From IMG/VR virus record IMGVR_UViG_3300000553_000319, positions 1 to 24,798 of that record: a stretch of 24,798 bases of DNA. One strand, 5' to 3'. Under the pieces are notes generated by a model. It saw only the letters and a program-made list of their open reading frames with translations, did not search any database and was not told the DNA's origin. The position numbers were made by a program, and so were the translations under genes. This document shows positions 2,663 to 24,798 of the stretch, one piece after another (position 1 is the first letter of the stretch; every line of letters begins with the position of its first letter). This DNA comes from a virus.

Positions 2663-2766
2663 TTCAACACATGCAGAGCTTCCGGTGGTTGCTCTCCTTT
2701 CTAGGTCGGTGGAGCCGGTCTAAAGGCGTGAAACCCTTTCATTCCACCACTTCTGAGGAGGGCCGT

Positions 2767-3924
2767 ATGGCCGTTTCCAATACCATCACTGCGATCATCC
2801 CGACCATCTTCGCCCAGGGATTGAGCGCGCTCCGCAACCTGTGTGTCATGCCTGGGCTGGTCAACAACAGCTACAGCACGAGCGCCGCCGAGAAGGGCCA
2901 GGTCATCAGCATCCCGGTGCCCTCCGCCATCGCCGTGGCCGACGTCGTGCCCGGTCCCTACGCCCCGGACAGCGGCAACGTCGCTCCGACCACTGCCAGC
3001 ATCACGCTGAGCAACTGGAAGGAAGCCGCGTTCACCCTGAACGAGCAGGAAATGGCCCAGGCCGTCGCGGGCTACGCCCCGCGCCAGATGACCGCCGCCG
3101 TCAGCGCCATCGCCGACTACGTCAACAGCACGATCTTCGCCTGCTACAAGAAGCTCGGGCAGGGCATCGGCACCCCTGGCACCGCGCCGTTCGCGACCGC
3201 CGTGGACGCAGCCGTCGACATGAAGGAACTGCTCACCAACATGAAGGCCCCGTTCAGCGACCGGCGCCTCGTCCTGGACACCGTCGCCATGGGCAAGGCC
3301 CTCAAGCTGGGCGCGTTCGCCTACGCCCTGAACAGCTCCGACCCCACCGTCATGCGGGAAGGCTCCATGGGCCGCAAGTACGGCTTCGACTGGCTGGAAG
3401 ACCAGCAGGTCCCGCTCCACACCGCGGGCACCATCACCACCGGCCTGATCTGCAAGGCCGCCACCGGCGTCGCCGCTGGCCTGAAGACCTTCACCGCCAC
3501 GACCGCGGCCTCCACCGGCGCCTGCGCCCTGAAGGCGGGCGACATCCTCACCATCGCCGGACACTCCCGCACCTACTCCCTGGCCGCCGACGCCACCCAG
3601 GCCTCCGCCGCCAGCGACGTCAGCCTGACACTGAACCAGGCGCTCGTCCAGGCGCTGGTCGGCTCCGAGGCCATCACCGCGGCCGCCAATCACCGCGTCA
3701 ACCTGGGCTTCCAGGCCGACTGCTTCGGCTTCGCTTCCCGGACCCTGGCCCCGGTCGCCGGCGCCGAGCCCAACCCCATGAGCATGGAAGTGTCGGACCC
3801 CATCTCCGGTCTGACCCTGCGCCTCCAGGTGCGTGAAGAGTTCCACCGTGTCCGGTGGGCCTTCGACATGCTCTGGGGCGTGGACGTCGTCCGCGAGGAA
3901 CTCGGCGCCCGGATGTTCGGCTAG
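2767..3924 (+). CDS. Major capsid protein, P22-coat-like
   Basis: This 385-residue coat protein forms the icosahedral shell (HK97 fold). The N-terminus has the P22-coat pattern: TxIIPTIFAQGLSALRN, then VMPGLVNNSYS, AAEKGQVISIPVPSAI and PTTASITLSNWKEAAF. A mid-protein insertion around residues 245-330 (LKAGDILTIAGHSRTYSL) corresponds to the I-domain region of that family. The end (WGVDVVREELGARMFG) is also typical. ATG 2767 follows GAGGAGG at 2755-2761. An in-frame ATG at 2671 would add 32 unlikely residues and almost no leader. Codons are extremely GC-rich at the third position (GCC, ACC, ATC, CTG, AAC), more so than in any neighbour, consistent with selection for very high expression. It is framed by terminators and has its own promoter. 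Confidence 0.92.
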   Translation: MAVSNTITAIIPTIFAQGLSALRNLCVMPGLVNNSYSTSAAEKGQVISIPVPSAIAVADVVPGPYAPDSGNVAPTTASITLSNWKEAAFTLNEQEMAQAVAGYAPRQMTAAVSAIADYVNSTIFACYKKLGQGIGTPGTAPFATAVDAAVDMKELLTNMKAPFSDRRLVLDTVAMGKALKLGAFAYALNSSDPTVMREGSMGRKYGFDWLEDQQVPLHTAGTITTGLICKAATGVAAGLKTFTATTAASTGACALKAGDILTIAGHSRTYSLAADATQASAASDVSLTLNQALVQALVGSEAITAAANHRVNLGFQADCFGFASRTLAPVAGAEPNPMSMEVSDPISGLTLRLQVREEFHRVRWAFDMLWGVDVVREELGARMFG

Positions 3925-5829: not shown

Positions 5830-5838
5830 GAGGCCGTG

Positions 5839-7011
5839 ATGGCTGTCTACTCTTCTGGATCTACCGTAGCCTGGAGCTACATCCAGGAAGTCACCTTCGG
5901 GATGACCCCTGCGACCCCCGCAATGAAGGTCCTCCGCGCGAAGCCTTCCAAGGTGACACTCAAGAAGACCACCTACACCACCGACGAGGTTCGCGCCGAT
6001 CGTGGTATCTCCGACGTTCGCCACGGTCAGCGTTCCGTCGATGGAACCTTGGATGGCGATCTCATGGTGGGCGGCTGGGACGACCTCATCCAGGCGGCTC
6101 TCCAGGGAACCTGGACCGCGGTCGCCACCGGGTCGGCTTCCCTCGCGGCCACCGCTGCCAACTCCTACACGCGCACCGTCGGCTCCTTCATCACCGATGG
6201 CTTCCAGCCAGGGGACGAGGTCATGGTCAGTGGCTTCGCGACCGGCGGCAACAATGGTCGGACCAAGGTGGTCTCCGTGGTCGCCCTGACCCTCACCGTG
6301 GCGAAGGTCACGACTGTGGATACCGCCGCTGCCGCTCGGTTCATCGCCGTGGGCAAGGACACTGTCCTCACCGGCTGGTCCATAGAGTTCGGCACCACCC
6401 TGCGTTCCTTCACCTTCGAGCAGGGCTTCACCGACATCAACCAGTTCCGGCAGTTCAAGGGCGTGACGATCAGCAAACTGAAGATCACCGCGAAGCCCGG
6501 TGCCATGGTGGAGGCCTCCTTCACCTTCCTCGGTGCCGACGCTGCTTCCACCACGGTGACCATCGCCGGTAGTTCCGTCGCTGCCGCCACCAACTCCCCC
6601 ATGAGCCCGTCCGTGGGAACCATCCAGGAGAACAATCTCGCCATCGCTTACATCACCAGCGTGGAGTTCGAACTGGACAACGGGTTGGCGGCTCAGGGAG
6701 TGGTCGGTTCAGATGTCACCCCAGCCATCTTCAACGGACGCTCCAGCATCACCGGCACCGTGACTGCCCTGTTCAAGGACCAGGTCATGATGAATAAGTT
6801 CCTGGCCGAAACGGAAAGCAACATCGATCTGGTGTTCAACGACCCCAACGGCACCGACTTCCACCACGTTCGCCTGCCCCGCATCAAATACACTGGGGCC
6901 GACACCGCCCCGCCCAAGGACGGTGCCACCATCATCACCATGCCTTTCACCGCGCTCGTCGATCCCGTCACTGGATCGAACATCATCTGGCAGCGCTCCA
7001 ACAACACCTAG
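5839..7011 (+). CDS. Major tail tube protein with an inserted module
   Basis: This 390-residue protein would polymerise into the tail tube. The N-terminus (SSGSTVAWSYIQEVTFGMTP, then TTDEVRADRGISDVRHGQ and GTLDGDLMVGGWDDLIQAAL) is typical of siphophage tube proteins of the Phage_tube_2 type. The pattern resumes after an insertion with VLTGWSIEFGTTLRSFTFEQ and ends with a long FNGRSSITGTVTALF and FHHVRLPRIKYTG region. Residues about 107-172 (6157-6354) form an inserted GSFITDGFQPGDEV module that also occurs in the L-like and J-like proteins. ATG 5839 is chosen over GTG 5836 because AGGAGG at 5828-5833 is five bases from the ATG and only two from the GTG. Codons are GC-rich, suggesting high expression. 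Confidence 0.88.
   Translation: MAVYSSGSTVAWSYIQEVTFGMTPATPAMKVLRAKPSKVTLKKTTYTTDEVRADRGISDVRHGQRSVDGTLDGDLMVGGWDDLIQAALQGTWTAVATGSASLAATAANSYTRTVGSFITDGFQPGDEVMVSGFATGGNNGRTKVVSVVALTLTVAKVTTVDTAAAARFIAVGKDTVLTGWSIEFGTTLRSFTFEQGFTDINQFRQFKGVTISKLKITAKPGAMVEASFTFLGADAASTTVTIAGSSVAAATNSPMSPSVGTIQENNLAIAYITSVEFELDNGLAAQGVVGSDVTPAIFNGRSSITGTVTALFKDQVMMNKFLAETESNIDLVFNDPNGTDFHHVRLPRIKYTGADTAPPKDGATIITMPFTALVDPVTGSNIIWQRSNNT
6157..6354 (+). repeat. Dispersed virion module, copy in tail tube protein
   Basis: Residues about 107-172 read GSFITDGFQPGDEVMVSGF, then four residues and NNG, then a VVSVVALTLTV strand and an AAAARFIAV end. The same order of strands and the GF-x(4)-NNG core recur at 11555-11782, 14250-14474 and 14496-14711. 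The copies are related at protein level, not as DNA repeats. The copy is flanked by tube-type sequence on both sides. Confidence 0.7.
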
Positions 7012-7019
7012 GAGGATTT

Positions 7020-7421
7020 GTGGATCTCTTCAACTACACCAGTGACCGCGCCAACATCCCCGTCGATGTCGTCATCAAACACCCTGTCACTGGGGTGGAC
7101 ACCGACAACATCATCCAGGTCATGGGGCTGGATAGCACCGCTGCACAGAACTGCGTGGACGCCCAGCAGGCTGCTCGGTTCCGGGCCATGGCCACCGTCA
7201 ATGGCGAGGTCGTGATGCCGGACTTCGATCCCACGGAGTCGAGGAACCAGCACATCGATCTCCTGGTGGCTTGCACGACCGGCTGGAAGAACATCCAGTG
7301 GAAGGGCGCCGACCTGCCCTTCACTCCCGAGAGCGCCCACATGATCTACGAAAAGGTTCCGACCATTCGTGATCAGGTGAGCAAGGCCACCGGGAGCCGA
7401 AAACTTTTTTTCACCGACTGA
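7020..7421 (+). CDS. Tail assembly chaperone, short form (G-like)
   Basis: This is the zero-frame product of the tail chaperone pair, 133 residues, starting at GTG 7020 with AGGAGG at 7010-7015. It contains VPDFD-like acidic strands (VDVVIKHPVTGVDTDNIIQV), a central AQNCVDAQQAARFRAM helix and a C-terminal LLVACTTGWKNIQWKG segment, as in many G-like chaperones that hold the tape measure before tube assembly. It stops seven bases after a slippery heptamer, so most ribosomes would make this form and some the longer fusion. Length, place between the tube and tape measure genes, and the frameshift signal together make the call strong. Confidence 0.85.
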   Translation: MDLFNYTSDRANIPVDVVIKHPVTGVDTDNIIQVMGLDSTAAQNCVDAQQAARFRAMATVNGEVVMPDFDPTESRNQHIDLLVACTTGWKNIQWKGADLPFTPESAHMIYEKVPTIRDQVSKATGSRKLFFTD

Positions 7422-7759
7422 GGATCAAGCTTCACGAACACGCTGAGAAGGAATTCGCTCTTGATATCCCGCGGAAAGATGGCACAGTCTTACGGCAGCA
7501 TGTCAAATTTCTGCGGGATTCTGGGTTGGATACCAGTGAGTTTGAACCTCCACCGCTACCACCAGAAATGCTCTACGTCTTCAGATATTTCCAGGAACTG
7601 TGTCTCGGTAGGGCAAGCAATGGAATGGGGCCAATGGCTCTTTCTTGCACAGAAATCCTGGCGTGGTCTCAACTCCGAGGGGTGCAGCTAGGTTCATTCG
7701 AATTCACCTGCATCCGCGAACTGGACCTCATTCTACTTAGGAGCCTGACCAATGTCTGA
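7020..7759 (+). CDS. Tail assembly chaperone, frameshifted long form (GT-like)
   Basis: A -1 slip at T TTT TTC (7406-7412) joins the G-like protein to a frame that is open from 7412 to the TGA at 7757-7759. This gives 246 residues. The extension begins HRLRIKLHEHAEKEFALDIP and ends with MGPMALSCTEILAWSQLRG, then FEFTCIRELDLILL, the typical T-domain ending (P-ls-EIxAWxxLxG...E-xxIRxLDxxwL). Zero-frame codons are AAA CTT TTT TTC. The stop of the fusion overlaps the ATG of the tape measure gene. The T domain is thought to recruit tube subunits to the tape measure. An independent ORF from ATG 7526 would lack the first 38 residues and a good ribosome site, so it is unlikely to be the real gene. 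Confidence 0.82.
7392..7412 (+). promoter_or_regulatory. Programmed -1 frameshift site
   Basis: The heptamer T TTT TTC (7406-7412) has the canonical X XXY YYZ form in the reading frame of the G-like gene: both tRNAs re-pair after a one-base slip. A GGGAG Shine-Dalgarno-like sequence at 7392-7396 ends about 10 bases upstream, a distance known to stimulate -1 slippage in dnaX. The zero-frame stop follows at 7419-7421. I see no convincing strong downstream stem-loop. Confidence 0.75.
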
Positions 7760-10574
7760 TGTAGCCGAACTCACTGCCATATTGCGGACCGAGGGTGCTG
7801 CTCAGGCAACGCGCGAAATTGAGCAAATGTCGTTCGCTGGTAAGCAGGCGGAAACTTCAACCTTGGACCTCACCGATGCGCTCCATACTCTCGGTGAGGC
7901 CTTTGCGTTGAAGGAAATAGTCGATTTCACTGTCAATCTTGCCAAACTGGGCGCTCGTTACGAGATGCTTGGAGCCACTCTAGGCATCATGGCAAACAAC
8001 GCTGGCTTTACCCGAGCCCAAATGGAAGGGTTCCAGGAAGGCATGGAGAAGACCGGCATCAGCGCCATCAAGGCCCGTCAGGGTCTGCAGATCATGGCCG
8101 CCGCCCAGTTGGATCTGTCCAAGGCGACTGCTCTGGGCCGCGTCGCCCAGGATGCCGCCACGTTGGCAGGTATCAATTCAAGCGAGGCTTACGCCAAGCT
8201 CGTTCAGGGTATTTCAACCGGTGAATCTCGCATCATTCGCCACATGGGCATCATGGTCAATTTCAAGAAGGCTATTGACGATGAAGCTCATTCTCGCGGT
8301 ATCCAGGTGAGCAGTCTGGATGCTGAGGCACTGGCCCAGATCCGTCTGCAGGCAACACTGGCCGAGGGCATCAAGCGTCAAGGAGTGTATGAAGAAGCTA
8401 TGACCACGGCTGGCAAGCAGATGCTGTCCATGGAACGCTACACTGAAAATCTGCGCGTCCAGATCGGTGAACTGTTCAACCCCTCCACGAACGTCCTGAT
8501 GTTCGCCATGGTGGCAGCGGTCCGGGAGGCCTCAGAAGCAATGAAGGAGTGGCAGGCCAGCGGTGACGCTACCATCTTCGCGGCTGGGCTGAAGGCCAAG
8601 ATGGAAGACTTGGTCGGAACCATCAAGGCCACTGTCCACTTCATCTATGAGTGGCGCAGTGCCATTGAAACTCTGGGGGCGGCCTACGCTGGGTTCAAGT
8701 TGACACAGTTTGTCAATGTTCAGCTTGAATCTCTCAACAGTGTCCGAGCTGCACTCACCAGGAATATGCAGGCTGAAGTACAGGCCGCCGCAGTGCGCGT
8801 CGCTATCATGCAGAAGAAGTTGGCCGACGCACTGGTTGACAAAGAAGTAGAAATGGAAAAGCAGGCCATGATGCCTGTGAAGTTCCGTTCAGAAGCTGAG
8901 TATCAGGCTCTGCGAGTGCGCGGGGTCATGCTAGATAGCGAAGCCGCCGTAGCGAAGCGTGGACTGGCTATGGCAGAGGAGCAACTCGCTGCCGCGCAGT
9001 TGGCCCAGGCGGGAGCTCAGTCACTTGCCCAGACGGCGCTCGGTGCCGTGGGCGGCCCCATCGGCATCCTCATCATTTCTCTCAGTGTTCTGGCCGCGTG
9101 GTGGTGGAAGGTTTCTGAGGCTGAGCGGGACTACAGGAACGGCGTCAAGGCTACTGTGGACGCCACTCAAGAAGCTGCCATCAACATTGGCCGCATAGCG
9201 GCTGCCAAGGAAAAGAAAGATAAGGGCGGCACCGCTGCCGAGATTGAAGCCATTCTCCATCCTGTGACAGAAACTCCTGCTGGGCAGGCCGCCAGGAAGA
9301 CTTTGGAAATGGCGGCTGAGAACTATAAACGGGAGTATGCCGCTGCCAATTCCTCCAAGGGTTCCACTGCAGGAGCCGCGGCTGATCAAGCTGCTCGTGA
9401 TAAAGCGACTGCCAAGTATCAGGAAGCTAAGGATACCTACGATCGGTTCGTGCGCTTCGCGGAAGAAAATCAACGCGATACCCTTGCTAAGGAAAAGGCC
9501 GATCTTGATGCCCGCAAGCTTCTTCACGAGCCCATACCTGTTGAAGCCAAGGTTCGTGAAGATTCCGAGAAGGTCAATCGTCAGATGGCTTCCATGGAAG
9601 AAAAGATCGCCAACTATAAGCTTCAAGGTCTGAACTATACCAAAGAAGAAATTGAAGAAAAGAAGGCCCAGAATGCTTATGATAAACAGATGGATGACTG
9701 GAACTTTCAGACTACTCACATGGTGGGCGGTAAGGACGACAAGCATCCGGAACTTTCCAAGGAAGATTTCGACAAGTTGTCTTCAAAAGCGCGCGAAATG
9801 GAGAAAGCCCGTAAGGATGCTGTCGATCTCCATCACCAGGAAGAAGAGGCCCACAGGATAGCCGATAAAAATCTCCGGGACAACATCAAGCTGATGGCTG
9901 ACGCTGCCAAGATCCGTGCTGACTACGCCGCTGCCATTGAGAAGGCCATCTCCAATGAACTTGATGCCGCCCGCGCCAGTGAGAAAGAAAACTCTGCCAT
10001 TGCGTTCTCCATGGACGTTCTCAGCAAGGCGTATCAGGATGGTGAGATCTCTGCTCAGCAATACACTCAGCGGATATTCGAATTGCAGACCCAAGTTCAC
10101 CGAACTGTGCCGGTGTTCGGAGATCTTCGCGACACCATCAACAACTCCATGACGTCTTCCGCAAAGGCTCTTCAGGATTTCTGCAATACGGGCAAGTTTG
10201 CCTTCAAGGATTTAATCCTCTCCATGCTCAAAGACATGCAGATGCTAGCCATCAAGAACAGTGTTATCAGCCCGCTGTTTGCTGCACTGACTGGTTCGCT
10301 CACTCCAAAGATCAGTGTCGGCGGGGGCGGGGGAGTTGGCCTCGGGCCCACTGCTGCCGGAACAACTCCCTACGTTCAATCCAACTATGCTGCCGCCCCG
10401 GTTGCCGCCGCGTCACTTCAGTCCGTGGCGGTGACCATCCACAACAACGGGGCTGTCACTTCCGATATTCAGTCCTCCGATGGGGCCGCCCAGATGGGCA
10501 CTGTCATTCATGCCGCGGTCCAGAAGTCAATCATTACCGAGCAGCGTCCTGGCGGTCTTCTTTATCAGGGGTGA
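7752..10574 (+). CDS. Tape measure protein
   Basis: This 940-residue protein is the longest head-to-tube region gene and follows the chaperones. It sets tail length and fills the tube before DNA ejection. The N-terminal region (VAELTAILRTEGAAQATREI) and a helix-rich KLGARYEMLGATLGIMANN to QGISTGESRIIRHMG region are typical of siphophage tape measures. A hydrophobic segment around residues 434-454 (GGPIGILIISLSVLAAWWW) may insert in the host membrane. Residues about 460-770 are a Lys/Glu/Asp/Ala-rich coiled coil. The C-terminus carries LSMLKDMQMLAIKNSV, the tip-binding end seen in lambda-type proteins, then a Gly-rich linker. At roughly 1.5 angstrom per residue the tail would be near 140 nm. 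The start has AGGAG at 7739-7743. Confidence 0.92.
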   Translation: MSDVAELTAILRTEGAAQATREIEQMSFAGKQAETSTLDLTDALHTLGEAFALKEIVDFTVNLAKLGARYEMLGATLGIMANNAGFTRAQMEGFQEGMEKTGISAIKARQGLQIMAAAQLDLSKATALGRVAQDAATLAGINSSEAYAKLVQGISTGESRIIRHMGIMVNFKKAIDDEAHSRGIQVSSLDAEALAQIRLQATLAEGIKRQGVYEEAMTTAGKQMLSMERYTENLRVQIGELFNPSTNVLMFAMVAAVREASEAMKEWQASGDATIFAAGLKAKMEDLVGTIKATVHFIYEWRSAIETLGAAYAGFKLTQFVNVQLESLNSVRAALTRNMQAEVQAAAVRVAIMQKKLADALVDKEVEMEKQAMMPVKFRSEAEYQALRVRGVMLDSEAAVAKRGLAMAEEQLAAAQLAQAGAQSLAQTALGAVGGPIGILIISLSVLAAWWWKVSEAERDYRNGVKATVDATQEAAINIGRIAAAKEKKDKGGTAAEIEAILHPVTETPAGQAARKTLEMAAENYKREYAAANSSKGSTAGAAADQAARDKATAKYQEAKDTYDRFVRFAEENQRDTLAKEKADLDARKLLHEPIPVEAKVREDSEKVNRQMASMEEKIANYKLQGLNYTKEEIEEKKAQNAYDKQMDDWNFQTTHMVGGKDDKHPELSKEDFDKLSSKAREMEKARKDAVDLHHQEEEAHRIADKNLRDNIKLMADAAKIRADYAAAIEKAISNELDAARASEKENSAIAFSMDVLSKAYQDGEISAQQYTQRIFELQTQVHRTVPVFGDLRDTINNSMTSSAKALQDFCNTGKFAFKDLILSMLKDMQMLAIKNSVISPLFAALTGSLTPKISVGGGGGVGLGPTAAGTTPYVQSNYAAAPVAAASLQSVAVTIHNNGAVTSDIQSSDGAAQMGTVIHAAVQKSIITEQRPGGLLYQG

Positions 10575-10577
10575 TAA

Positions 10578-10925
10578 ATGGCAGCACCTATTTTCACATG
10601 GTTTGAGGACTGGGGTGGAGAACAGGCCCATAAGCCACGGAACTTCATCATGCAACTGGGTGATGGCTATGTAGAACGAGCCGGCAACGGCATCAATACG
10701 GATCTTCCAGCCTACACCATCACGTTCAGTGGGCGCACCACTGCCGAAGCTCAGGCGATCATGGCCTTCTTGGTCACGACCTGCGCGGCGGGTGTCATCG
10801 CCTTCCAGTTCCAACCCTATGGTGACGCCGTGTCGTCCTTGTGGACCTGCAACGACTACAAGATGAAAGCCAAGGCCGTCAATGTCTTTGATATCTCCTG
10901 CGTGTTCCAGAAGGTGGTGGCATGA
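10578..10925 (+). CDS. Minor tail protein M-like
   Basis: This 115-residue protein follows the tape measure gene by three bases, with an AGGGGTG site. FTWFEDWGGEQAHKPRNFIM followed by LGDGYVERAGNGIN (the 'fGDGYxqr...GiN' signature) identifies the lambda gpM / Phage_min_tail family (PF05939). The remainder (YTITFSGRTTAEAQAIMAFL, a helix, then LWTCNDYKMKAKAVNVFDIS) also follows the family pattern. M forms part of the distal ring that joins tube and tip complex. It overlaps the next gene by four bases. Length is normal for the family. Confidence 0.9.
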   Translation: MAAPIFTWFEDWGGEQAHKPRNFIMQLGDGYVERAGNGINTDLPAYTITFSGRTTAEAQAIMAFLVTTCAAGVIAFQFQPYGDAVSSLWTCNDYKMKAKAVNVFDISCVFQKVVA

Positions 10926-11836
10926 GTATTCCGTATTCTGATGTTCAGACACTAGCCCCTGGTTCACTTGTAACTCTATTCAAGTTGGATTGCTCCAGTA
11001 TTGGTGGTGGCGTCTACTATCTTGCTCCACAATGCAATGTTCTGAAGGGAAATGTCATTTGGCAGGGGGTGACCTACACAGCTATCCCCATATCGGCCAC
11101 TGGCTTCACTTACTCCACTAAAGGGACACTGCCCCACCCGCAGATTTCTATCTCCAACTTGGATGGTTTGATTAGCAGTTTGGTGGCTTCTCTTCAAGAC
11201 GTAGTTGGAGCCTACGTTACTCGTATCCGTGTTCTCACCAAGTATCTGGATGCAGCTAATTTCGTTGGCGGGGTCAACCCCACTGCTGATATCTCAGCCG
11301 GATATGCCACCGATGTGTGGGTAATTGAACAGAAGACCTATCATTCATCAGACTCTATTACATTTGACATGGTGGCGGCTTGCGACGTCCAAGGACTTCG
11401 TCTGCCGGCTAGGACCATGCAGACTTCCAACTGCGGGCACGGTTTCGCGAACTTGGATGGTCTTAATCTGTGCCCCTATTCTGGTTCACTATCTACCTGC
11501 GATCATGGGTTGAACACTCCTAACGGCTGCGCGGCCCACTTCATTCCCAAGGCCATCACTCAGAGTTTCGTGGTGGCGTCTGGGGCAAAGACCTTCGCTG
11601 GTACCGGGTTCGTGACAAACGGCTACAAGATCGGTATGCAGATCTACACCACTGGCTTCACGAATGCGGGCAATAATGGAACGCTAACCATCTCCGCAGT
11701 CACTAATACTCTACTCACATGCAGCACTGCCTCCGGACTGGTAAGCGAAACTTCTCCTGCGACGGCGACTATCGTTGCCGTGAATGTCCCTCTCCCATTC
11801 GGCGGGTTCCCAGGAACGACGGTTCAGTCGTCATGA
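10922..11836 (+). CDS. Minor tail protein L-like with Fe-S cysteines and inserted module
   Basis: This 304-residue homologue of lambda gpL is a tip component known in lambda to carry a [4Fe-4S] cluster. Here four cysteines occur at 171, 184, 193 and 203 (CGHGFANLDGLNLC, then STCDHGLNTPNGC), the expected cluster ligands. The N-terminal region includes LAPGSLVTLFKLDCSSIGGG and an HPQISISNLDG strand, and the protein ends with the family's FGGF motif at 293-296. Between the cysteines and FGGF, residues about 212-287 form an extra module shared with the tube and J-like proteins; lambda gpL has no such insertion. The ends overlap both neighbours as ATGA. Confidence 0.88.
   Translation: MSIPYSDVQTLAPGSLVTLFKLDCSSIGGGVYYLAPQCNVLKGNVIWQGVTYTAIPISATGFTYSTKGTLPHPQISISNLDGLISSLVASLQDVVGAYVTRIRVLTKYLDAANFVGGVNPTADISAGYATDVWVIEQKTYHSSDSITFDMVAACDVQGLRLPARTMQTSNCGHGFANLDGLNLCPYSGSLSTCDHGLNTPNGCAAHFIPKAITQSFVVASGAKTFAGTGFVTNGYKIGMQIYTTGFTNAGNNGTLTISAVTNTLLTCSTASGLVSETSPATATIVAVNVPLPFGGFPGTTVQSS
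11555..11782 (+). repeat. Dispersed virion module, copy in L-like protein
   Basis: Residues about 212-287 include GTGFVTNGYKIGMQIYTTGF, then TNAGNNGTLTISAV and an SETSPATATIVAV end. The boundaries fall between two conserved parts of gpL (last Fe-S cysteine and FGGF tail), which makes an insertion likely. Confidence 0.75.
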
Positions 11837-12495
11837 TGTTGCCAGCCTTTGAGGCATTCAGAGAACATGCGCATCGCGCTGCCCCAGCCGAGTGCTGTGG
11901 GCTGATCGTGGATGAGGACTACCACGCCTGCCCAAACCTAGCCCCGCTGGGGCAATTTGAGCTGTGCCCCGAGGCGTGGGACAGGCTCGAAGATTGCGGG
12001 CAAATAAAGGCCATATGCCACAGCCACCCGGCAGGTCAGGCTTCTCCTAGCGCACTAGATAAGGAATCTTGCGAAACATTTGGGCTTCCATGGTATATTA
12101 TTGGGCGTAATGACGATCTTCAACGCCTAGACCCAGCCCCAATCCCTTTGCTGGGGCGCGAGTTCATTTACGGTTGGCAGGACTGTTTCTCCCTGGCTAG
12201 GGACTACTATGGCTTTGCTCAAGATTACCCGCGCGAAGAAAGGTTCTGGGAATACGGCCACAGCCCGTATGAAGAACACTTCAGAGAGTTTGGGTTTGAA
12301 GAAATTCAACTACAGCATCTTTCCCCAGGAGATGCTATACTTATGCGTGTCGGCACGAAAAAAGTTTTCAACCACGTAGGCATCTACCAAGGGGATGGGC
12401 GAATAGTGCATCATCTCATGAATAGGTTTTCTTCTATCGACCTGCTAGGGCCATTCTCAGAAAATGGCCTGAAGGTTATCAGGAGGATTCAGTGA
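11833..12495 (+). CDS. Tail tip assembly protein K-like (JAMM plus NlpC/P60 peptidase)
   Basis: This 220-residue two-domain protein like lambda gpK is needed for tip assembly and probably cuts peptidoglycan. Residues 1-80 form a JAB/MPN domain: E20 in AECCGLIV, H63 and H65 in CHSHPAGQ, S73 and D76 (S-x-x-D), the complete JAMM zinc set. Residues about 110-200 are NlpC/P60: C118 in YGWQDCFSLARDYY as nucleophile and H181 in FNHVGIYQGDGRIVHH. All expected catalytic residues are present, so both activities may be intact. ATG 11833 overlaps the L stop (ATGA); a longer in-frame start at 11719 lies inside L and is unlikely. The 3' end overlaps the next gene as GTGA. Confidence 0.92.
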   Translation: MMLPAFEAFREHAHRAAPAECCGLIVDEDYHACPNLAPLGQFELCPEAWDRLEDCGQIKAICHSHPAGQASPSALDKESCETFGLPWYIIGRNDDLQRLDPAPIPLLGREFIYGWQDCFSLARDYYGFAQDYPREERFWEYGHSPYEEHFREFGFEEIQLQHLSPGDAILMRVGTKKVFNHVGIYQGDGRIVHHLMNRFSSIDLLGPFSENGLKVIRRIQ

Positions 12496-13169
12496 ACGAA
12501 TTAGTCACCATCAAGTTGCGCGGAGAACTGGGCAAACGGTTCGGCAAGGTCCACAGACTGGCGGTTGATAGCGTATCAGAAGCTCTGCGGGCTTTGATGA
12601 TAGTTGTCCCCGGCTTTGCTGAATACCTGCGTGACAACAAAAGAATGGAATACAAAGTTCTGCTGAAGAACGAACCGATCATTGATGAGTTCCAATTTCA
12701 GATGGCCTGTGGGTTCAATGAAATCTGTCTGGTGCCTCGTGTTCGTGGTGCAGGTGGCGATGGTCTTGGCAACTTCTTCATGGGGGCTGCTCTCATTGCC
12801 CTGGCGATAGCCGCCCCTGAGGCGCTGACTTTCATCGGTTCCACGGGTTTCACCATCATGATGGGCATGGGCACATCAATGATGCTGGGTGGCGTCATGC
12901 AGTTGATATCTGGAACTGCGCCCAGCAATCCCTCCAACAACACGAACTCATATGCCTTCAACAGCGCCCAGAATTCTTCTGGGCAGGGTGTTCCCATTCC
13001 AGTAGCTTACGGTAAATTCAAGATTGTTCCTCCCATTATCAGTCAAGAAATTGATACAGAAATGTTCACTACCGATCTATTCAACTACGGGGTTGCAGAT
13101 GGCCTCGGAAATTGGTTGGGAGACGGAGACACTTCATGCTGGTGCGCCAGTCTTGATCCTATCGCGTAG
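12492..13169 (+). CDS. Tail tip assembly protein I-like
   Basis: This 225-residue lambda gpI-type protein starts at GTG 12492 inside the K stop. Residues 1-70 are a beta-grasp (ubiquitin-like) domain (VTIKLRGELGKRFGKVHRL, then a helix SVSEALRALMIVVPGFAEYL). Residues about 92-141 are very hydrophobic and Gly/Met-rich (GAALIALAIAAPEALTFIG, MMGMGTSMMLGGVMQLI), as is normal for gpI. The end has the family signature SSGQGVPIPVAYGKFKI ('qGnpVPvvYGrxxvg'), then a short tail with CWC. I helps build the tail tip and may act with K. The J-like protein next door starts with a related beta-grasp domain. Confidence 0.88.
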   Translation: MNELVTIKLRGELGKRFGKVHRLAVDSVSEALRALMIVVPGFAEYLRDNKRMEYKVLLKNEPIIDEFQFQMACGFNEICLVPRVRGAGGDGLGNFFMGAALIALAIAAPEALTFIGSTGFTIMMGMGTSMMLGGVMQLISGTAPSNPSNNTNSYAFNSAQNSSGQGVPIPVAYGKFKIVPPIISQEIDTEMFTTDLFNYGVADGLGNWLGDGDTSCWCASLDPIA

Positions 13170-13178
13170 GGGAACCAG

Positions 13179-16100
13179 ATGAAGATTGTCCTCAGAGGTC
13201 GACTGGGCCGCCAGTATGGTAAGAACCTGATCATCACTGGCGAACACGAACCGGCCATCATCAACAAGTTGATGAAGGCTGTGCCCGAGATGTATGGCCG
13301 TCTGGAAAACTACAGCCTGAAATTCGGCAAGACTGTGTGCTACGTGTCTGAACGACTTGTAGGGCGGGAACATAGTGGGGACATTGGTGGCGGAAATCAG
13401 CAACAGCCGCCGATCATCGCTGTTCCTGGACCCATTCCGCCCAAATACTCCGCCACCACGAGTACCACTCTTCAATCCATCCAACAGTCCAAGATTCTCT
13501 ATGCCATGTCTGAAGGAATCATTGACGGATTTGTTCATCCCTCCCAGGGACTTCGCGACGTATATCTGGACGATGTGCCTGTCCAGAATTCAGATGGCAC
13601 CTTCAATTTCAACGGCATTGCTGTCGCGGCTACGGCGGGCACTACGACCCAGAAGCCCATTACTGGAATGAATAGCATCTCCACACTACTTTCTAGTGGA
13701 GCCAACATTCTTCAAGCCAGCCCTGTGACTGTCTCCATCACCAACCCCAATGTCAATTCAGTAATGCTGAATATCTACATGTCTTCGTGTCAGGTAATTG
13801 GCGGAGCTGGAAATAGTGTCGTTCTTAAGATTGAAGTATCCGCCAATGGTGGCGCATACGTGAATGTCACTGATCGGGTCATGAATTCGCAGAACACCGC
13901 TGCTCCTGGCACCATCATGGGTTGGTCAGCAGGCCCCTACACGGCTGGGTTCCGTGTCCCCCTTCCTACCGGAACTAATTGGCTGATCCGTATCACGCGT
14001 GTTTCTCTGGATGCTGCTGGACTAAATCAAAACCCCACGGCTCTTCAGAGCTATGCTTTGATCACCGAAGAAAATCTTTCATATCCATCCGTCGCGCTTA
14101 TGGCGGCGATGTTCGATGCCCACCGGTTCCCGAGCATGCCCAAGTTGTCTGTGTTGATCAATGGTGTGCGAGTAAAGGTTCCTAATGGCTACACCGCTGC
14201 TCGTCAAGGCGGCGTATCTCTCAATTCTTTTATAACGACTACTGGCGTCAATCTGCAAATATCTGCTGCTGGTATCATCACGCAGGCCAGTGGAAACTTC
14301 ACCACGGCTGGATATCTTGTAGGCAATGCCATCACAGTGGCTGGGTTTGCCAACTCTGTCAACAATGGCAAGTTCATTATTAGTGTGGTGGGGACAACCA
14401 CCATGACCATCATTCCCCAGCCAGGAGTGACCCTTACGTTTATCACGGAATCTTCTGGCTCTGGAAGAACCCTTTCTTCTAGTGCCCCGCCTCAATTAGC
14501 TATCACCAGCACGACAATCATTACCCGTAGTGGCAACGGAAGTTTCTTAAACGAAGGTTTTGCTTCTGGGCAACGTATTTCTCTTACTGGGTTCAGCGTT
14601 GCTTCAAATAACGGCACATTCACAATTCAGTCTGTGACCGCCAGCACCATTACGATTAACGCTGCTTCGCTCACTATTGAAACTTCGGCAGCTGGACGCA
14701 CTATTACTACCGCATGGTCTGCAGCAGTCTACCCAGGTTCGTGGGATGGCACATGGGTAGATGGCTGGACTTCTAATCCGTCGTTCATTCTATGGGACAT
14801 GGCAACGAATAAGCGCTATGGCGCGGGCCGGTATCTTCTTCCCGCCAATGTTGATAAGTGGGGCATCTATGCCATGGCACAGTATTGTGATGCGCTGGTA
14901 TCCGATGGATATGGGGGGTTGGAACCCAGGTTCACATTCAACGGATATCTGCAAACTTCTGATGATGCCTATAAAGTCTTTGCCGATATAGCTTCCTCTG
15001 CCAGAGCCCAAGTATTCTATGGCGCTGGAATGATTACTCCTGTTCAAGATACTGATACTACTCCGGCTGGCATCTTCACCAGGGCCAATGTCAAGGATGG
15101 AAAGTTCGTATATCAGAGTTCTGCCCGCAAGGCTCGCCACACGGTGTGCAATGTAACCTGGACAGATCCCGCGCAGCTCTACGCACAGGTGGTGGAAACT
15201 GTCCAGTGTGCCGACTTAGTCATTCAAAAATATGGCGTTCAGACTGTCAATGTGACTGCAGTCGGTTGCACTTCTCTTGGTCAAGCTCGCAGATATGGGC
15301 GCACCACTCTGTTAGTCGAGCAGGGATTAGTTGAAGTCGTCACCTTCACCACAGGGCTCCAGGGCATCACCACCAAGGTTGGAGACATCATCCTTATTCA
15401 GGATGCTGGGAGAGTCACTGCTCGTCTGGGTGGGCGCATCGTTTCTGCTACCGCCTCGCAGATCACTGTGGATAACCCTACAGTTCTCGCTGCCGGACAA
15501 ACCTATACTCTCTATGCAGCCATGCCAGACGGAACCATTCAGTCGGCCACGGTCACCAACTCTGCTGGAACCTACACCGTTCTCAACCTTGGATCTGCTC
15601 TCACTACTGCGCCTCAGTCTCAGGCACAGTGGGTGTTATCCTCTGCTAATTCTATCGCTGGCCGTTGGCGCATCATCAGCATAGCAGAATCAGTTTCTGA
15701 AGAAGCTATGGAATATGCCGTCACCGCTGTCCAGAACATTGAATCTCTGTATTCTCTGTTCGACAGCACTGACAGCATTGTGCCCATTACGAACAATTTG
15801 CGAGCAACTCCTGGTGTCAGTGGGCTGACGGCATCATATACCACTATTCCACTGAATGGTTCTCCAATAAATAATATTTCAGTTTCGTGGACTGCTCCAG
15901 CCAACGCAACTCCCACAAGCTACCAAGCTCTGTGTCAGATTGCCAATGGTGTGTGGAAGGAGATGACTGTCAGCGGAACTAGCGCCGTAATTCAAGTTCC
16001 GGATTATGGTCAGGCCAATATTCGTGTCACCCCCATATACTCGTGGGGCGTGGGCGTTCCAATGACTACTTCGGTCATGTGCTATGGCATCGTCGCCAGC

Positions 16101-18311
16101 ACCATCAATAACATGACCTTTGTTCAGTCCACGACTAATCCGCCTGTGGTGGTCAATGAATATCGGCAACTGGCTACCGAGGGTCTTGGCGGTTCTACCA
16201 TCGTGGGCGGAGTTCCTACTCAGTTCACCCCCGTATACCTGACGGTAACGTTTGAGAACATAGATTGGTCTACCAATCCTGCGCTCATGACTGGCTATGA
16301 AGTAGTGTTCTCCAAGAGTAACGTTGTAAGCGATATTTCAAGCTACCTTCTTCCAATATGTGAAGTTCCCATGAAGACCAAGCCGCTGGCTTTGTCCAAT
16401 ATCACGATAACCGGGGCCGCCAAGACCATATCTGTTCCCAATGGTGGCCTGATCGCTGCTGGCTTCAAGACTGGCGTAGTGTTCTATTTGTCTGGCGTAG
16501 CCAGCGGTTCTGGACCGTTTGTCGCAGGGACTGTTACAGACAATTCTATCATGGTTCCGTTAGCAACTTGGACTGATCAGTCTATTCCTACTTCTTACAT
16601 CACTCCAGTTCAATCCGCTACTGTTTCAATCGTTCCACAAACTGGATTCTCTGTATGGGCTTTTGCTCGTCAGCTCTACTATGGCAATGTCGTAGGAGGT
16701 TGGAATAACGTCTCTGGCGTAACTGTAGCAAGCACTAATCAGCAACTTGCGTCGCTTACCTACATCGGAAATGATGGTATCCTAAGTGTGGGGGAGAAGC
16801 CTGCCGTCTTTGCAGACTATACGGGCTTGTTGTCTCAGATTACCATGCTAAGGTCCGAGGCCACAACTCTTTGTGCAGTGCTGCCCACTCAGAACACTCT
16901 TCTTGCCTATCTGACTGGGCTAGGCCCCTGGCCGTGGACTGATAGAACCGTGGGTCACGATACAGTCATTCCAGACCCCAGTATCTGGACCTCTAAGTGG
17001 TCTGAAATCTATAACGAAATTGCCGCTCTGACTGCCAATATCTCTGCTGCTTTGAATGTTCTTGGAGCTGGTGGTCTGATTTCTGCCAACAATCTTATCC
17101 CTAACTGGGATAGTGAACTTGGGCCAAGGCCTCTTTCCGCCGGATTTAATGTCTATGATACTCAGTTGACTGCCCCTCTTGGAACAAGTAAGGGATACAA
17201 TGCTTCGCGCTACTGCAGAAAATACGCTGGTGTCGGTGGCGCAACTGGCTTTGGCGGCTATATAACTTCTTATCAAACAGAAGCTCCCACGAAATGCAAG
17301 GCGGGAAAAACCTACGCGATCAATTATATGGTAAAGGAAATCTCTAACAGCGGCACTTCTATTACAGGAGATGTAGGCTTTCTTATAGCGTTTAGCGACG
17401 GTTCTGGTAGTAGCGTAGGCAGCGCAATAATTTTGTGGGGATGGAATCCAGCTCTGGCATTCGGAACATGGTGGGAAACAGGCGTAGCTTCTGGACTTCC
17501 TACACTTCTGTTCACTGCACCTACTGGAGCGGCTTCATTCAGTGTCCAAGTCATATGCGGAAATGGGTTCAGTGGAGCTGGTGTAGAACTTTGGCTTGAC
17601 AATGTTTCTCTGATAGAACTGCCCACTCTCGCCGCAGCCGCCACGGTAGGTGGAACTGTGGACAGTGTTGTCACGGCCATTGCTTCCAAGGTGGTGGCTC
17701 CTAACACGTTGGTTCAGCGCGATAGTTCCGGCGTAGTTTACTCCAATTGCTGGAACTATGCTAGTCAACTTCGCGCCTCTACACAGCTCGTAGGTGCATT
17801 CAACATCAATGATTCCTCACTGCTTTCTGGCTGGGACCAACCCGGCATGTATCGTTTCGGCAACGCAGGAACTGACAATCCTGGGGTCAGCTACGGCAAC
17901 ATGTTGACCCTCTGCGCAGGTTCGGACAGCATGTCCCAGATCGTCTGCGATTACCTGAAACCACGGATGTTCATTCGCTCTGCGAACTGGACGGGGACCT
18001 GGACCTTCAACGGTGGGGGCGCCAATGGGTGGACCGAGGTGTGGACTAACAACAACAATGGTGGAACCATCACTGCGGCTAACGGATATCGGAAGTTTGC
18101 TGATGGGCAAATCATGATCTGGGGGGTGGCCGCGGCCGGAACCTCAATTACTTGGTCTGGGACACTGACCTTTCCCAACGCTTGTCTTAACGTGTTTCTC
18201 ACCCCGGCAAGCGCACCCTCGGCCATTCCCTACGCCTCTACCCTGACCACTACTGGATGCACCGTCAACAATGTCGGCGCCATTCTTCGCTACCTCGCAA
18301 TCGGATACTAG
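13179..18311 (+). CDS. Tail tip / host-specificity protein J-like, fused to receptor-binding domains
   Basis: This 1710-residue protein of the central tail tip probably binds the host. Residues 1-62 repeat the I-type beta-grasp domain (MKIVLRGRLGRQYGKNLIIT). Lambda J-type sequence then follows (SIQQSKILYAMSEGIIDGFV near 100; PGSWDGTWVDGWTSNP near 520; VDKWGIYAMAQYCDALVSDG; YGGLEPRFTFNGYL near 580). Two module copies (358-432, 440-511) split the conserved VPNGYTAAR / YPGSWDGTW junction. FnIII-like regions span about 893-960 and 1018-1190, the latter with a possible third copy. From 1297 to 1481 lies a CBM4/9-like domain (NNLIPNWDSELG ... VELWLDNVSLIE), then a pyocin-knob-like domain (about 1540-1630, LLSGWDQPGMYRFGN) and a gp53-like tip ending YLAIGY. 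AGGGGA precedes ATG 13179. Confidence 0.9.
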   Translation: MKIVLRGRLGRQYGKNLIITGEHEPAIINKLMKAVPEMYGRLENYSLKFGKTVCYVSERLVGREHSGDIGGGNQQQPPIIAVPGPIPPKYSATTSTTLQSIQQSKILYAMSEGIIDGFVHPSQGLRDVYLDDVPVQNSDGTFNFNGIAVAATAGTTTQKPITGMNSISTLLSSGANILQASPVTVSITNPNVNSVMLNIYMSSCQVIGGAGNSVVLKIEVSANGGAYVNVTDRVMNSQNTAAPGTIMGWSAGPYTAGFRVPLPTGTNWLIRITRVSLDAAGLNQNPTALQSYALITEENLSYPSVALMAAMFDAHRFPSMPKLSVLINGVRVKVPNGYTAARQGGVSLNSFITTTGVNLQISAAGIITQASGNFTTAGYLVGNAITVAGFANSVNNGKFIISVVGTTTMTIIPQPGVTLTFITESSGSGRTLSSSAPPQLAITSTTIITRSGNGSFLNEGFASGQRISLTGFSVASNNGTFTIQSVTASTITINAASLTIETSAAGRTITTAWSAAVYPGSWDGTWVDGWTSNPSFILWDMATNKRYGAGRYLLPANVDKWGIYAMAQYCDALVSDGYGGLEPRFTFNGYLQTSDDAYKVFADIASSARAQVFYGAGMITPVQDTDTTPAGIFTRANVKDGKFVYQSSARKARHTVCNVTWTDPAQLYAQVVETVQCADLVIQKYGVQTVNVTAVGCTSLGQARRYGRTTLLVEQGLVEVVTFTTGLQGITTKVGDIILIQDAGRVTARLGGRIVSATASQITVDNPTVLAAGQTYTLYAAMPDGTIQSATVTNSAGTYTVLNLGSALTTAPQSQAQWVLSSANSIAGRWRIISIAESVSEEAMEYAVTAVQNIESLYSLFDSTDSIVPITNNLRATPGVSGLTASYTTIPLNGSPINNISVSWTAPANATPTSYQALCQIANGVWKEMTVSGTSAVIQVPDYGQANIRVTPIYSWGVGVPMTTSVMCYGIVASTINNMTFVQSTTNPPVVVNEYRQLATEGLGGSTIVGGVPTQFTPVYLTVTFENIDWSTNPALMTGYEVVFSKSNVVSDISSYLLPICEVPMKTKPLALSNITITGAAKTISVPNGGLIAAGFKTGVVFYLSGVASGSGPFVAGTVTDNSIMVPLATWTDQSIPTSYITPVQSATVSIVPQTGFSVWAFARQLYYGNVVGGWNNVSGVTVASTNQQLASLTYIGNDGILSVGEKPAVFADYTGLLSQITMLRSEATTLCAVLPTQNTLLAYLTGLGPWPWTDRTVGHDTVIPDPSIWTSKWSEIYNEIAALTANISAALNVLGAGGLISANNLIPNWDSELGPRPLSAGFNVYDTQLTAPLGTSKGYNASRYCRKYAGVGGATGFGGYITSYQTEAPTKCKAGKTYAINYMVKEISNSGTSITGDVGFLIAFSDGSGSSVGSAIILWGWNPALAFGTWWETGVASGLPTLLFTAPTGAASFSVQVICGNGFSGAGVELWLDNVSLIELPTLAAAATVGGTVDSVVTAIASKVVAPNTLVQRDSSGVVYSNCWNYASQLRASTQLVGAFNINDSSLLSGWDQPGMYRFGNAGTDNPGVSYGNMLTLCAGSDSMSQIVCDYLKPRMFIRSANWTGTWTFNGGGANGWTEVWTNNNNGGTITAANGYRKFADGQIMIWGVAAAGTSITWSGTLTFPNACLNVFLTPASAPSAIPYASTLTTTGCTVNNVGAILRYLAIGY
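14250..14711 (+). repeat. Tandem virion modules inserted in the J-like protein
   Basis: Two consecutive copies lie at residues about 358-432 and 440-511. Copy 1 reads TAGYLVGNAITVAGF then NSVNNG; copy 2 reads NEGFASGQRISLTGF then VASNNG. Both end in an E-(S/T)-S-x(2-3)-GRT motif (ESSGSGRT, ETSAAGRT). In lambda J the flanking segments (VPSNY...SGIWDGTF) are adjacent, so both copies are insertions. They have diverged at DNA level. Confidence 0.75.
16386..16640 (+). repeat. Possible third module copy in the J-like protein
   Basis: Residues about 1070-1153 contain GGLIAAGFKTGVVFYLSGV followed by a Gly/Ser turn and further strands. The spacing resembles the first half of the other copies, but NNG is replaced by GSG. 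It interrupts an FnIII-like region. It is weaker than the other copies and may only be a similar beta hairpin. Confidence 0.4.
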
Positions 18312-22740: not shown

Positions 22741-24798
22741 ATGCTGTTAGGACTTCGGTCCCTATATGAAGCGCAAGCCTCTGGAGGGCTTGCGCTCAAA
22801 CAGGCATACACCACAACTGCTAATGGAAAATCAGTTGCTGGAGTAAACATAGCAGTGGGCGACCTCGTGGTCGTCGGATACTGTATCGGTAACTCTATAG
22901 CAGCAATTACCTGTTCTGATGGTAGCGCAAACGTTTATCGTGAAGTAGGGACCGGGCAGTATAACTCAGCGTCCAACCAAACGATGCACCTGCTCTACTG
23001 CGTCGCCACGGTGGCCAACGCTTCGGCTACGGTCACGGTCACCGACGCGAACACAAACTACCCCTGCGTCAATGTCGCCACCTACACAGGTGCGATCTCC
23101 GACGGTTCTGCTGTTCTTCGGGCGGGGACCTGGATGACAGCGGAGACCGTGGCCGCGACCGGCCATACGTCGGCGACGATCTCAGCGACAACCGGGGACC
23201 TGCTGATCTCCCTGACCGGTGAAGCTTCGGTGGGGTCGGCGGCCTACACAGACAATTCTGGCTTCACTTTCCGCACCCAAGAAGCCTATGGGGCACTGAG
23301 TCTAGCTGATAAGATCAGTTCCACCACGGGTTCAGTATCTGATTCCATTACTTCATCTCCAGCCTGCGTTGCGATGAACTGTATCGCTGCGTTCAAACCC
23401 GGAGCTACGGGGGTAACAGGAACTTCAACCGCCGCATCTCCATCCATCAGTGGGTCTGCCACGGGTGTTCGCGGGGCAGCAGGAACTTCAGCCGCCGCAT
23501 CTCCATCCATCAGTGGGTCTGCCACGGGTGTTCGCGGGGCAGCAGGAACGAGTTCCACTTCTCAGGTTCTTCTTAATGTCGCCACGGGTGTCCATGGGGT
23601 GAGCGGAACATCATCCACTTCTCAGGCATTCGGCAGCTCTGCCACCGGATCCATAGGCGCGGCAGGTTCCTCTCCCATAAGCGCTCTGTCCATCGGAAGT
23701 TCTGCCAGCGGCACAGTAATTGACTTCACTGGAACGTCCACTGCTGCGTTATCTATAACTGGTTCCGCCAATGGCTCCATAGGTGTAGCTGGCTACGTTC
23801 CAGTAAGTAATCTAGCCTTGGGCGGTTCTGCCAGCGGCACCGTTACTTCTGGATCGGTTACAGGCACCTCGTCCTCTACCATGTCCCTGAGCGGAGTTGC
23901 TGTTGGTTCTCATGGCGAGGCTGGCTATGTTCCGACGAGTGCATTCTCATTCGGCGGGGCAGCCAGTGGTTCCTTCACAACACCAGTGTCTGGAACATCT
24001 GCTTCATCACTGTCCTTAAGTGGCTCTGCCGCTGGTATTCGTGGTGTCTCTGGAACTTCTGCCACTTCTCAGTCCTTTGGTAACTCTGCATCTGGTTCTC
24101 ATGGTGTAGCCGGTTCTTCCCCCATAAGCACGATTATATTCGGTAACTCCGCCAGCGGCGTCTTCGCCACACCCATCTCCGGAACATCTGCTTCCTCTCT
24201 ATCACTGAGTGGAACTGCCGCCGGTTCTCATGGTGTAGCCGGTTTTTCCCCCACCAGCGCTCTTGTCATAGGAGGCTCTTCAACTGGCACGGCTGGCAAC
24301 GTCGTTTCTGGATCGTCAACTGCCCCACTATCTATTAACGGTTCTGCCGCTGGTGTTCGTGGAGAGGCGGGTTCTTCCCCCACCAATATTATTCAGTTCT
24401 CTGGTGTGGCAGCGGGCGGGCATGGGGTCTCTGGTTTCGCTGCTATGGCTGCGCTCGCTATTGTTGGCGCGGCTATCGGGGCCATGCAGGTCAGGGGAAC
24501 TTCTACCGGCACAGTTTCCATAACTGGTTCAGCTAGTGGAACCGCTGGGCAAGCCACCGTCACTGGAACATCCACCGCGCCCCTAGTTCTGAGTAACTCT
24601 GCCACTGGTTCTCATGGAGTAGCGGGATCTGTTCTCACTAGTTCCCTCTCCATGGGCGGAGCGGCTACTGGAGCAGTCCGAGTCTTCGGCACTACGACTA
24701 CTTCTCTGGCCATCGGCGGGGTGGCTACGGGCACCGCTGGGCTAGGCACGGTGACAGGCACTTCGACTGCCTCCCTTGCCCTCTCAGGGGCCGTTGCC
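22741..24798 (+). CDS. Large repeat-rich fibre-like protein (3' end outside window)
   Basis: The frame starts at ATG 22741, directly after the previous stop (TAAATG), and stays open for all 686 codons to the window edge. There is no strong ribosome site, so re-initiation is likely. Residues about 15-220 are a beta-sandwich-like domain (VNIAVGDLVVVGYCIGN, MHLLYCVATVANASATVTV, ATISATTGDLLISLTGEA, CVAMNCIAAFKP), a layout found in secreted or surface proteins. From residue 221 on, about 21 units of G(T/S)S-x(3-4)-(L/I/F)-x-(G/N)-(S/V/A)-A-x-G-x(2)-G-(V/A)-(A/S)-G follow, with almost no charged residues. It is probably a long fibre or appendage shaft, as a beta-helix or solenoid. This is inference; the C-terminal tip is not visible. 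Confidence 0.75.
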   Translation, partial: MLLGLRSLYEAQASGGLALKQAYTTTANGKSVAGVNIAVGDLVVVGYCIGNSIAAITCSDGSANVYREVGTGQYNSASNQTMHLLYCVATVANASATVTVTDANTNYPCVNVATYTGAISDGSAVLRAGTWMTAETVAATGHTSATISATTGDLLISLTGEASVGSAAYTDNSGFTFRTQEAYGALSLADKISSTTGSVSDSITSSPACVAMNCIAAFKPGATGVTGTSTAASPSISGSATGVRGAAGTSAAASPSISGSATGVRGAAGTSSTSQVLLNVATGVHGVSGTSSTSQAFGSSATGSIGAAGSSPISALSIGSSASGTVIDFTGTSTAALSITGSANGSIGVAGYVPVSNLALGGSASGTVTSGSVTGTSSSTMSLSGVAVGSHGEAGYVPTSAFSFGGAASGSFTTPVSGTSASSLSLSGSAAGIRGVSGTSATSQSFGNSASGSHGVAGSSPISTIIFGNSASGVFATPISGTSASSLSLSGTAAGSHGVAGFSPTSALVIGGSSTGTAGNVVSGSSTAPLSINGSAAGVRGEAGSSPTNIIQFSGVAAGGHGVSGFAAMAALAIVGAAIGAMQVRGTSTGTVSITGSASGTAGQATVTGTSTAPLVLSNSATGSHGVAGSVLTSSLSMGGAATGAVRVFGTTTTSLAIGGVATGTAGLGTVTGTSTASLALSGAVA
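23398..24798 (+). repeat. Degenerate Gly/Ser/Ala/Thr-rich repeat array in the fibre gene
   Basis: About 21 complete units, mostly of 19-26 residues, each with a G-(S/V/A)-A-x-G-like centre, continue past the window end. Two unit types tend to alternate: one begins GTS-S-LSLSGSAAG, the other GSSP-S-FGNSASG, so a repeat of about 40 residues is visible in the middle (23970-24290). DNA copies have drifted except for the first pair. Confidence 0.85.
23419..23544 (+). repeat. 63-bp near-perfect tandem repeat
   Basis: Copies lie at 23419-23481 and 23482-23544 and differ by one base I can see (ACC versus GCC codon, Thr to Ala). Each encodes 21 residues containing SPSISGSATGVRGAAG. The third unit keeps only the framework. 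This looks like a recent duplication. Confidence 0.92.

Follow-up and report, generated by a model that had tools for sequence, protein, structure and literature searches.

The DNA analysed here is a viral record of 24.8 kb from IMG/VR (IMGVR_UViG_3300000553_000319, 24,798 nucleotides) and is referred to as the window. Three of its tail proteins, namely the major tail tube protein, an L-like tail tip protein and a J-like central tail tip protein, carry four units of about 75 residues, two of them in J. All four represent a single module and are homologous to each other. Computation established their homology, their insertion into the host proteins, a presence/absence polymorphism among related phages, the use of several slots and host proteins, and a profile link to FCCH-like barrels. 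The module is probably an autonomous all-beta, FCCH-like domain, belonging to what is termed here the NNG subfamily, that is inserted in surface slots and would serve as an outward accessory decoration with an intrinsic function.

The tube protein (5836-7011) belongs to Phage_tube_2 (PF18906, E = 5.2e-36) and carries unit T1 at residues 100-172 (6133-6351). Unit L1 lies at residues 213-287 (11558-11782) of the L-like protein (10922-11836; PF05100 Phage_tail_L, E = 2.1e-38; phrog_18, E = 6e-62). The J-like protein (13179-18311; PF24801 and PF13550; phrog_31, E = 5e-156) holds J1 at residues 355-433 (14241-14477) as the first and J2 at residues 437-511 (14487-14711) as the tandem second unit of a single slot. 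All of these features are encoded on the plus strand. In a leave-one-out test, a hidden Markov model (HMM) built from any three units was searched against the fourth, which was recovered with E = 2.4e-12 (T1), 2.8e-12 (L1), 1.2e-11 (J1) and 2.4e-15 (J2). With these values, ranging from 1e-11 to 2e-15, the homology proposed in an earlier note on this DNA was confirmed for four segments at essentially the coordinates given there. Comparison of unit pairs with blastp, covering all four, gave E-values of 8e-8 to 2e-12. In a six-frame translation of the window, the leave-one-out HMMs found nothing better than E = 0.33 beyond the four units. A candidate degenerate fifth unit at J residues ~1077-1133 (16407-16577, plus strand) gave a blastp E-value of 5.6e-6 against J2 and was marginal overall; it was not accepted because its HMM E-values were 0.004-0.06 (0.0085) and its hhalign probability only 35%.

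The module is inserted in tube, L and J alike. T1 directly follows helix 82-89 of the tube model (assigned with DSSP) and is not part of the Phage_tube_2 core, PF18906 having 266 positions compared to 391 residues in the tube protein. The tube model shows a duplicated tube domain by fold match to the P74-26 and T5 tubes and matches 8xan_A (TMt 0.88), 8ed0 and 9iny. The solved major tail protein 8xan (phage SH-Ab15497) aligns to residues 6-97 and 186-378 and skips T1, and the segment is also missing from the tubes of PaMx28, DLP4 and Seurat. L1 separates the last Cys motif (GCAAHF) from the end motif LPFGGFPG, and in the L homologues listed these two motifs are directly joined, without a module; structural relatives of this protein are 8iyk_L and 25vf_7. 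Within J, whose structural relatives are 9l9p_S, 25vf_A and lambda J (8iyk_J), residues 339-516 correspond to residues 259-263 of 9l9p_S, where there is a loop of 4 residues. The slot is empty in most J homologues, which read VPxNY-(2-4 residues)-YxGxWDG. One J homologue (L096) has a single module in the slot used by J1 and J2, and another (L004) has none in the slot and one module elsewhere. It was checked if the segments might belong to the core fold of each family; as 8xan and the J and L homologues skip the units, they are insertions, as the earlier note had claimed.

The module is dispensable at genus scale. Among Pamexvirus tubes, that of PaMx74 (380 residues) contains the module (E = 4e-20) and that of PaMx28 (304 residues) lacks it, with 80.6% identity over the shared residues. 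The same holds for Bosavirus, where the tube of QDWS359 (388 residues) carries the module and those of DLP4 and AXL_1 (313 residues) do not, at 86-87% identity. No insert is present in the tube slot of Seurat, Vibrio 1.117.O or PMBT28, and a divergent module occupies it in Salmonella Jerseyvirus Ent3 (HMM E = 1e-9) and phage SGP009 (5e-11). The tube of Xanthomonas phage DoCa5 (L204:3004-4311) has a different, unrelated insert of more than 100 residues in this slot (AGDTMTIGAVTYTF...), and in the tube of the giant Caulobacter phage C1 (L207:601-2433) the module forms part of an insert that is much longer. A resemblance by eye between the insert of DoCa5, a portion of that in C1 and the coat protein of the window was not borne out by a profile test. 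Two tube relatives (L007 and L010) contain a second module in another loop, so that two further loops are used across both.

Since the J units stand in tandem and the genome has four copies, a recent duplication inside this phage might be considered as their origin. This was rejected as highly improbable, because the units are closer to those of other phages than to each other: T1 shares 63% identity with units in the tubes of other phages, and L1 is closest to the tube unit of L010 (61.5% identity), compared to only ~33-47% among the four. The four copies are therefore regarded as separate acquisitions. Together with the plus/minus pairs within genera, the relationship of L1 to the tube unit of another phage bears out the earlier suggestion that the module is exchangeable.

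Relatives were collected in a profile-guided scan that yielded 82 from IMG/VR, of which 80 were kept, and 10 from GTDB genomes. The scan pattern demanded GF-x4-NNG and the invariance of those columns is thus partly built in; conserved columns free of this bias are G29 (61/68) and E66 (62/68). An iterated HMM found 131 module copies in 100 open reading frames (ORFs) at 90 loci. After masking of the module, the host ORFs fell into about two dozen phmmer clusters, which is an upper bound as several clusters are single or truncated ORFs. Family searches identified the host proteins as tube (PF18906), J (phrog_31), L (PF05100), tail terminator (phrog_179/PF13554), head-tail adaptor (phrog_442) and tail proteins of phrog_469 and phrog_778, and L045 and L053 had a short and weak match to a head-decoration family. 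The module is carried by at least seven kinds of virion protein. The three settings named in the earlier note were therefore correct but too few, as tail terminators, head-tail adaptors and further tail proteins carry the module too. Single units in tblastn matched few cultured phages, and profile searches were needed.

Several further observations came from these searches. Ten of the loci (L020, L023, L037, L043, L047, L049, L051, L052, L058 and L079) encode a family of ~213-286-residue proteins with the module at residues ~85-145; no PHROGs match was obtained for three members and none in Pfam or cultured phage records for L049. A virus contig (L053:718-6998) and a contig labelled 'uncultured archaeon' (L087:74-6096) share the same three adjacent module-bearing genes with four modules, which are 58-68% identical, and the latter could be viral or result from faulty binning. 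Tube-like genes of the Salmonella phages vB_StyS-sam (NC_073177.1:17555-18553) and ST1 (MF001366.1:24657-25655) are labelled 'site-specific recombinase', apparently a misannotation of the tube protein.

The fold was studied with an AlphaFold2 model of J2 (14484-14714, based on 68 sequences), which has seven strands, no long helix and a mean predicted local distance difference test score (pLDDT) of 94. For profile comparison, an alignment of 20 FCCH-like, PF16190-matching proteins, named A4, was used. The module profile matched A4 in hhalign with a probability of 89.8 and E = 1.8e-6, and with 92.2 when gappy columns were removed, while the best of 200 column shuffles reached 5.9 and the reversed profile 0.2. 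A4 itself found the E1 FCCH domains in the PDB (E = 1e-13) as well as the solved phage tail proteins 10lj_C, 9l0f_G, 26dk_M and 9jlf_E. Residues 16-92 of phage T1 gp41 matched A4 with a probability of 91, compared to 0.3 or less for control segments. In a single bacterial order (that of G001), 21 out of 300 genomes had a match to PF16190 (E1_FCCH), several of them in proteins of ~215-230 residues, one of which also has a weak match to the tube family PF08813; PF16190 was not found in the nine module-carrying genomes. Bacteriophage Ig-like (immunoglobulin-like) Pfam families had zero matches among the 68 copies, and a single weak one concerned the NUP210 Ig model. Stray sub-threshold matches in Pfam and PHROGs (DUF4097, DUF5941, Flagellin_D3 and phrog_9998) were each common to few members at most and were dismissed, as was a chance match over 16 residues to a Mad protein when the PDB was searched with the module profile. 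There is good evidence from these profiles, short of proof, that the module would be akin to E1-FCCH-like small beta-barrels.

Concerning the position on the particle, solved tubes provide the closest guidance. Residues 16-94 of phage T1 gp41 form an 'Ig-like' domain outside the tail tube in cryo-electron microscopy (PMC11945409). In JBD30, the decoration domain (residues 88-175) comes immediately after the peripheral helix (77-83) and stands out from the disc (PMC11445458), and domain 2 of the YSD1 tube protein is located between alpha1 and beta4 on the tube exterior, where it wraps the adjacent subunit (PMC8718954, PMC7385642). By analogy, it is a sensible inference that the tube module faces outwards, because its slot after the helix matches that of the external JBD30 and YSD1 domains and the FCCH-like domain of phage T1 gp41 is external as well. 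Outward projection is also expected because a lumen of 40 Å (the JBD30 value) must pass DNA, which leaves no obvious room inside.

For the tube copies, the strongest rival is an inter-subunit brace, in which the module would fold onto the neighbouring subunit and stiffen the ring or tip like domain 2 of YSD1. That domain grips the adjacent subunit, burying 950 Å2 on it (PMC8718954, PMC7385642), and T1 likewise is in a slot directly after the helix. The same module, however, is hosted by proteins whose rings differ considerably and, within one tube family, by more than one loop, and tubes with 81-87% identity lack it, therefore no fixed partner surface can be conserved. In addition, the surface domains of phages T1, T5 and JBD30 protrude. 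A brace is thus possible but doubtful.

In the proposed explanation, an outward decoration, each copy would be placed in a surface loop, that is, after the peripheral helix of the tube, before the LPFGGFPG motif of L and between the VPxNY and YxGxWDG motifs of J, and the domains would project from the tail exterior. The effect would be intrinsic to the domain and not a lock between particular subunits, because the hosts differ in assembly geometry and can have no single partner surface in common. It is moderately likely that the module would form a dispensable outer decoration with weak multivalent contact to cell-surface or environmental polymers. No support was found for immune-like variation, which had also been considered earlier.

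A more specialised role as a specific glycan-binding domain that aids attachment of the phage to its host appears about as doubtful as the brace. Following the top hits, Foldseek ranked domains of a phage depolymerase (KP34p57) and of endosialidases (phi92, K1F), i.e. similar folds in polysaccharide-degrading tailspikes; one FCCH-like relative (L178) had a weak match to PF12195; and Ig domains on tail surfaces have been proposed as carbohydrate binders (PMC8718954). On the other hand, the strongly conserved G29, GF, NNG and E66 look structural, unlike an exposed aromatic or acidic patch, and PaMx28 without the module and PaMx74 with it both infect P. aeruginosa.

Several results weigh against an FCCH-like decoration that faces outwards and is exchanged between proteins. 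In the Foldseek search of the PDB, ubiquitin E1 FCCH domains ranked at the top (TMq 0.60-0.66; TMt 0.48 for 2v31), but with E ≥ 0.1 these hits are not significant. None of the 68 module copies matched PF16190 at E ≤ 0.01 (its curated Pfam cut-off is 29.5 bits), and because no copy reaches PF16190, the module was classed as a sister subfamily and not as a member. No Pfam or PHROG family recognises the NNG subfamily reliably; the earlier statement that no named family covers the module is therefore true of this subfamily, but needs to be qualified as profile comparison places the module beside the PF16190 barrels. The match of module profile and A4 spans only the central 37-40 columns, and the single units L1 (probability 1.5) and J1 (16) do not reach A4. 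The surface location assumed in the earlier note is most likely for the tube, given its slot and the solved analogues; for L and J, an outward position would follow from the insertion site only. No conserved ligand site was identified in the module. Finally, for 70 of 115 copies the nearest neighbour outside their own locus belonged to the same class of host (mean 22.6 and maximum 35 after shuffling), and for the remaining 45 to a different one. The module has thus mostly been passed on together with the protein that carries it, and exchange between host proteins is a minority event.

This pattern also bears on the idea of a neutral, tolerated insertion that spreads by recombination among virion genes and persists for no other reason than that surface loops tolerate it. 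Such a scenario would fit the presence and absence within a genus, the several unrelated inserts that share a slot and the scattered host proteins. It is nevertheless considered unlikely, and more so than brace or glycan binding, as the fold is well kept across 68 diverse copies and host-linked inheritance implies long retention.

The window contains a siphophage structural region with genes for a P22-like coat, tube, tape measure, M, L, K, I and J-like proteins, followed by fibre-like genes; the labels M and K were assigned via sequence and gene order. The major capsid protein (2671-3924) is P22-coat-like (PF11651, E = 6e-20), and its residues ~211-345 had a weak match to the module profile (hhalign probability 14-18). 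Insertion domains of P22-type coats might be distant relatives of the barrel. The protein encoded at 12492-13169 has a lambda tail-I-like N-terminus, VTIKLRGELGKRFGK (PF06805), which seems, by eye only, to be repeated at the N-terminus of the J-like protein as MKIVLRGRLGRQYGK (13179-13500), as if an I-type domain had been fused to J. At the end of the window (22741-24798), an ORF of 686 residues reaches past the contig end and encodes a long degenerate Gly/Ser/Thr/Ala repeat array (GTSTA..SISGSATG..GAAGTS) that is fibre-like; it had no Pfam match.

Promiscuous accessory domains on phage particles are already known for the Ig-like type, and FCCH-like barrels in tube-like proteins are already implicit in Pfam. 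Within the reach of the searches made, four things are new: the NNG subfamily, its presence in at least seven families of virion protein, the multi-slot and plus/minus evidence, and the profile link, by which at least one tube domain published as 'Ig-like', that of phage T1, would be reassigned. Tail surface domains of phages are usually lumped as 'Ig-like', and the module is a separate unnamed family with a link to E1 FCCH, a domain that annotators could name and that is missed by current family libraries. The natural pairs PaMx74/PaMx28 and QDWS359/DLP4 make the decoration role directly testable on near-identical tails. On a broader scale, and with considerable reservation, it is conceivable that tailed phages have FCCH-like barrels, rather than Ig-like domains, as a major interchangeable surface domain that has mostly escaped notice and is placed in standard slots (tube, terminator, adaptor, hub and tip), and that the eukaryotic E1 FCCH would be a captured member of an ancient viral or bacterial pool.

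Among the closest known systems, E1_FCCH (PF16190) resembles the module in its size, the core G-x-x-V-x-x-(S/A)-G-x(5)-NG-x(3)-V and the insertion in prophage tube-like proteins, but the module subfamily is marked by GF-x4-NNG and by an almost invariant E close to its C-terminus. The endosialidase beta-barrel of phages (PF12195; 4hiz, 1v0e) shares a weak fold resemblance and the weak cross-match of the FCCH-like relative; it differs in belonging to an enzyme tailspike and has no significant sequence link to the module. The phage T1 gp41 domain is FCCH-like by profile and an external insertion in a tube protein, yet it is near the N-terminus of another tube family (PF08813) and is not matched by the NNG-subfamily profile itself. 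JBD30 gp44 (88-175) and YSD1_22 domain 2 occupy the same slot after the helix of the tube fold as unit T1, but they are described as Ig-like and no sequence match to them was found with the module profile. The promiscuous Ig-like domains of phages (Big_1, Big_2 and FN3; Fraser et al. 2006, cited in PMC8718954) are likewise accessory, occur in unrelated virion proteins outside the tube and are often dispensable; they belong to another fold family and are mostly C-terminal in tube proteins, in contrast to the internal module (PMC8718954). The module behaves like these Ig-like decorations, with its unrelated virion hosts and its absence from close homologues, but by sequence it is not one of them.

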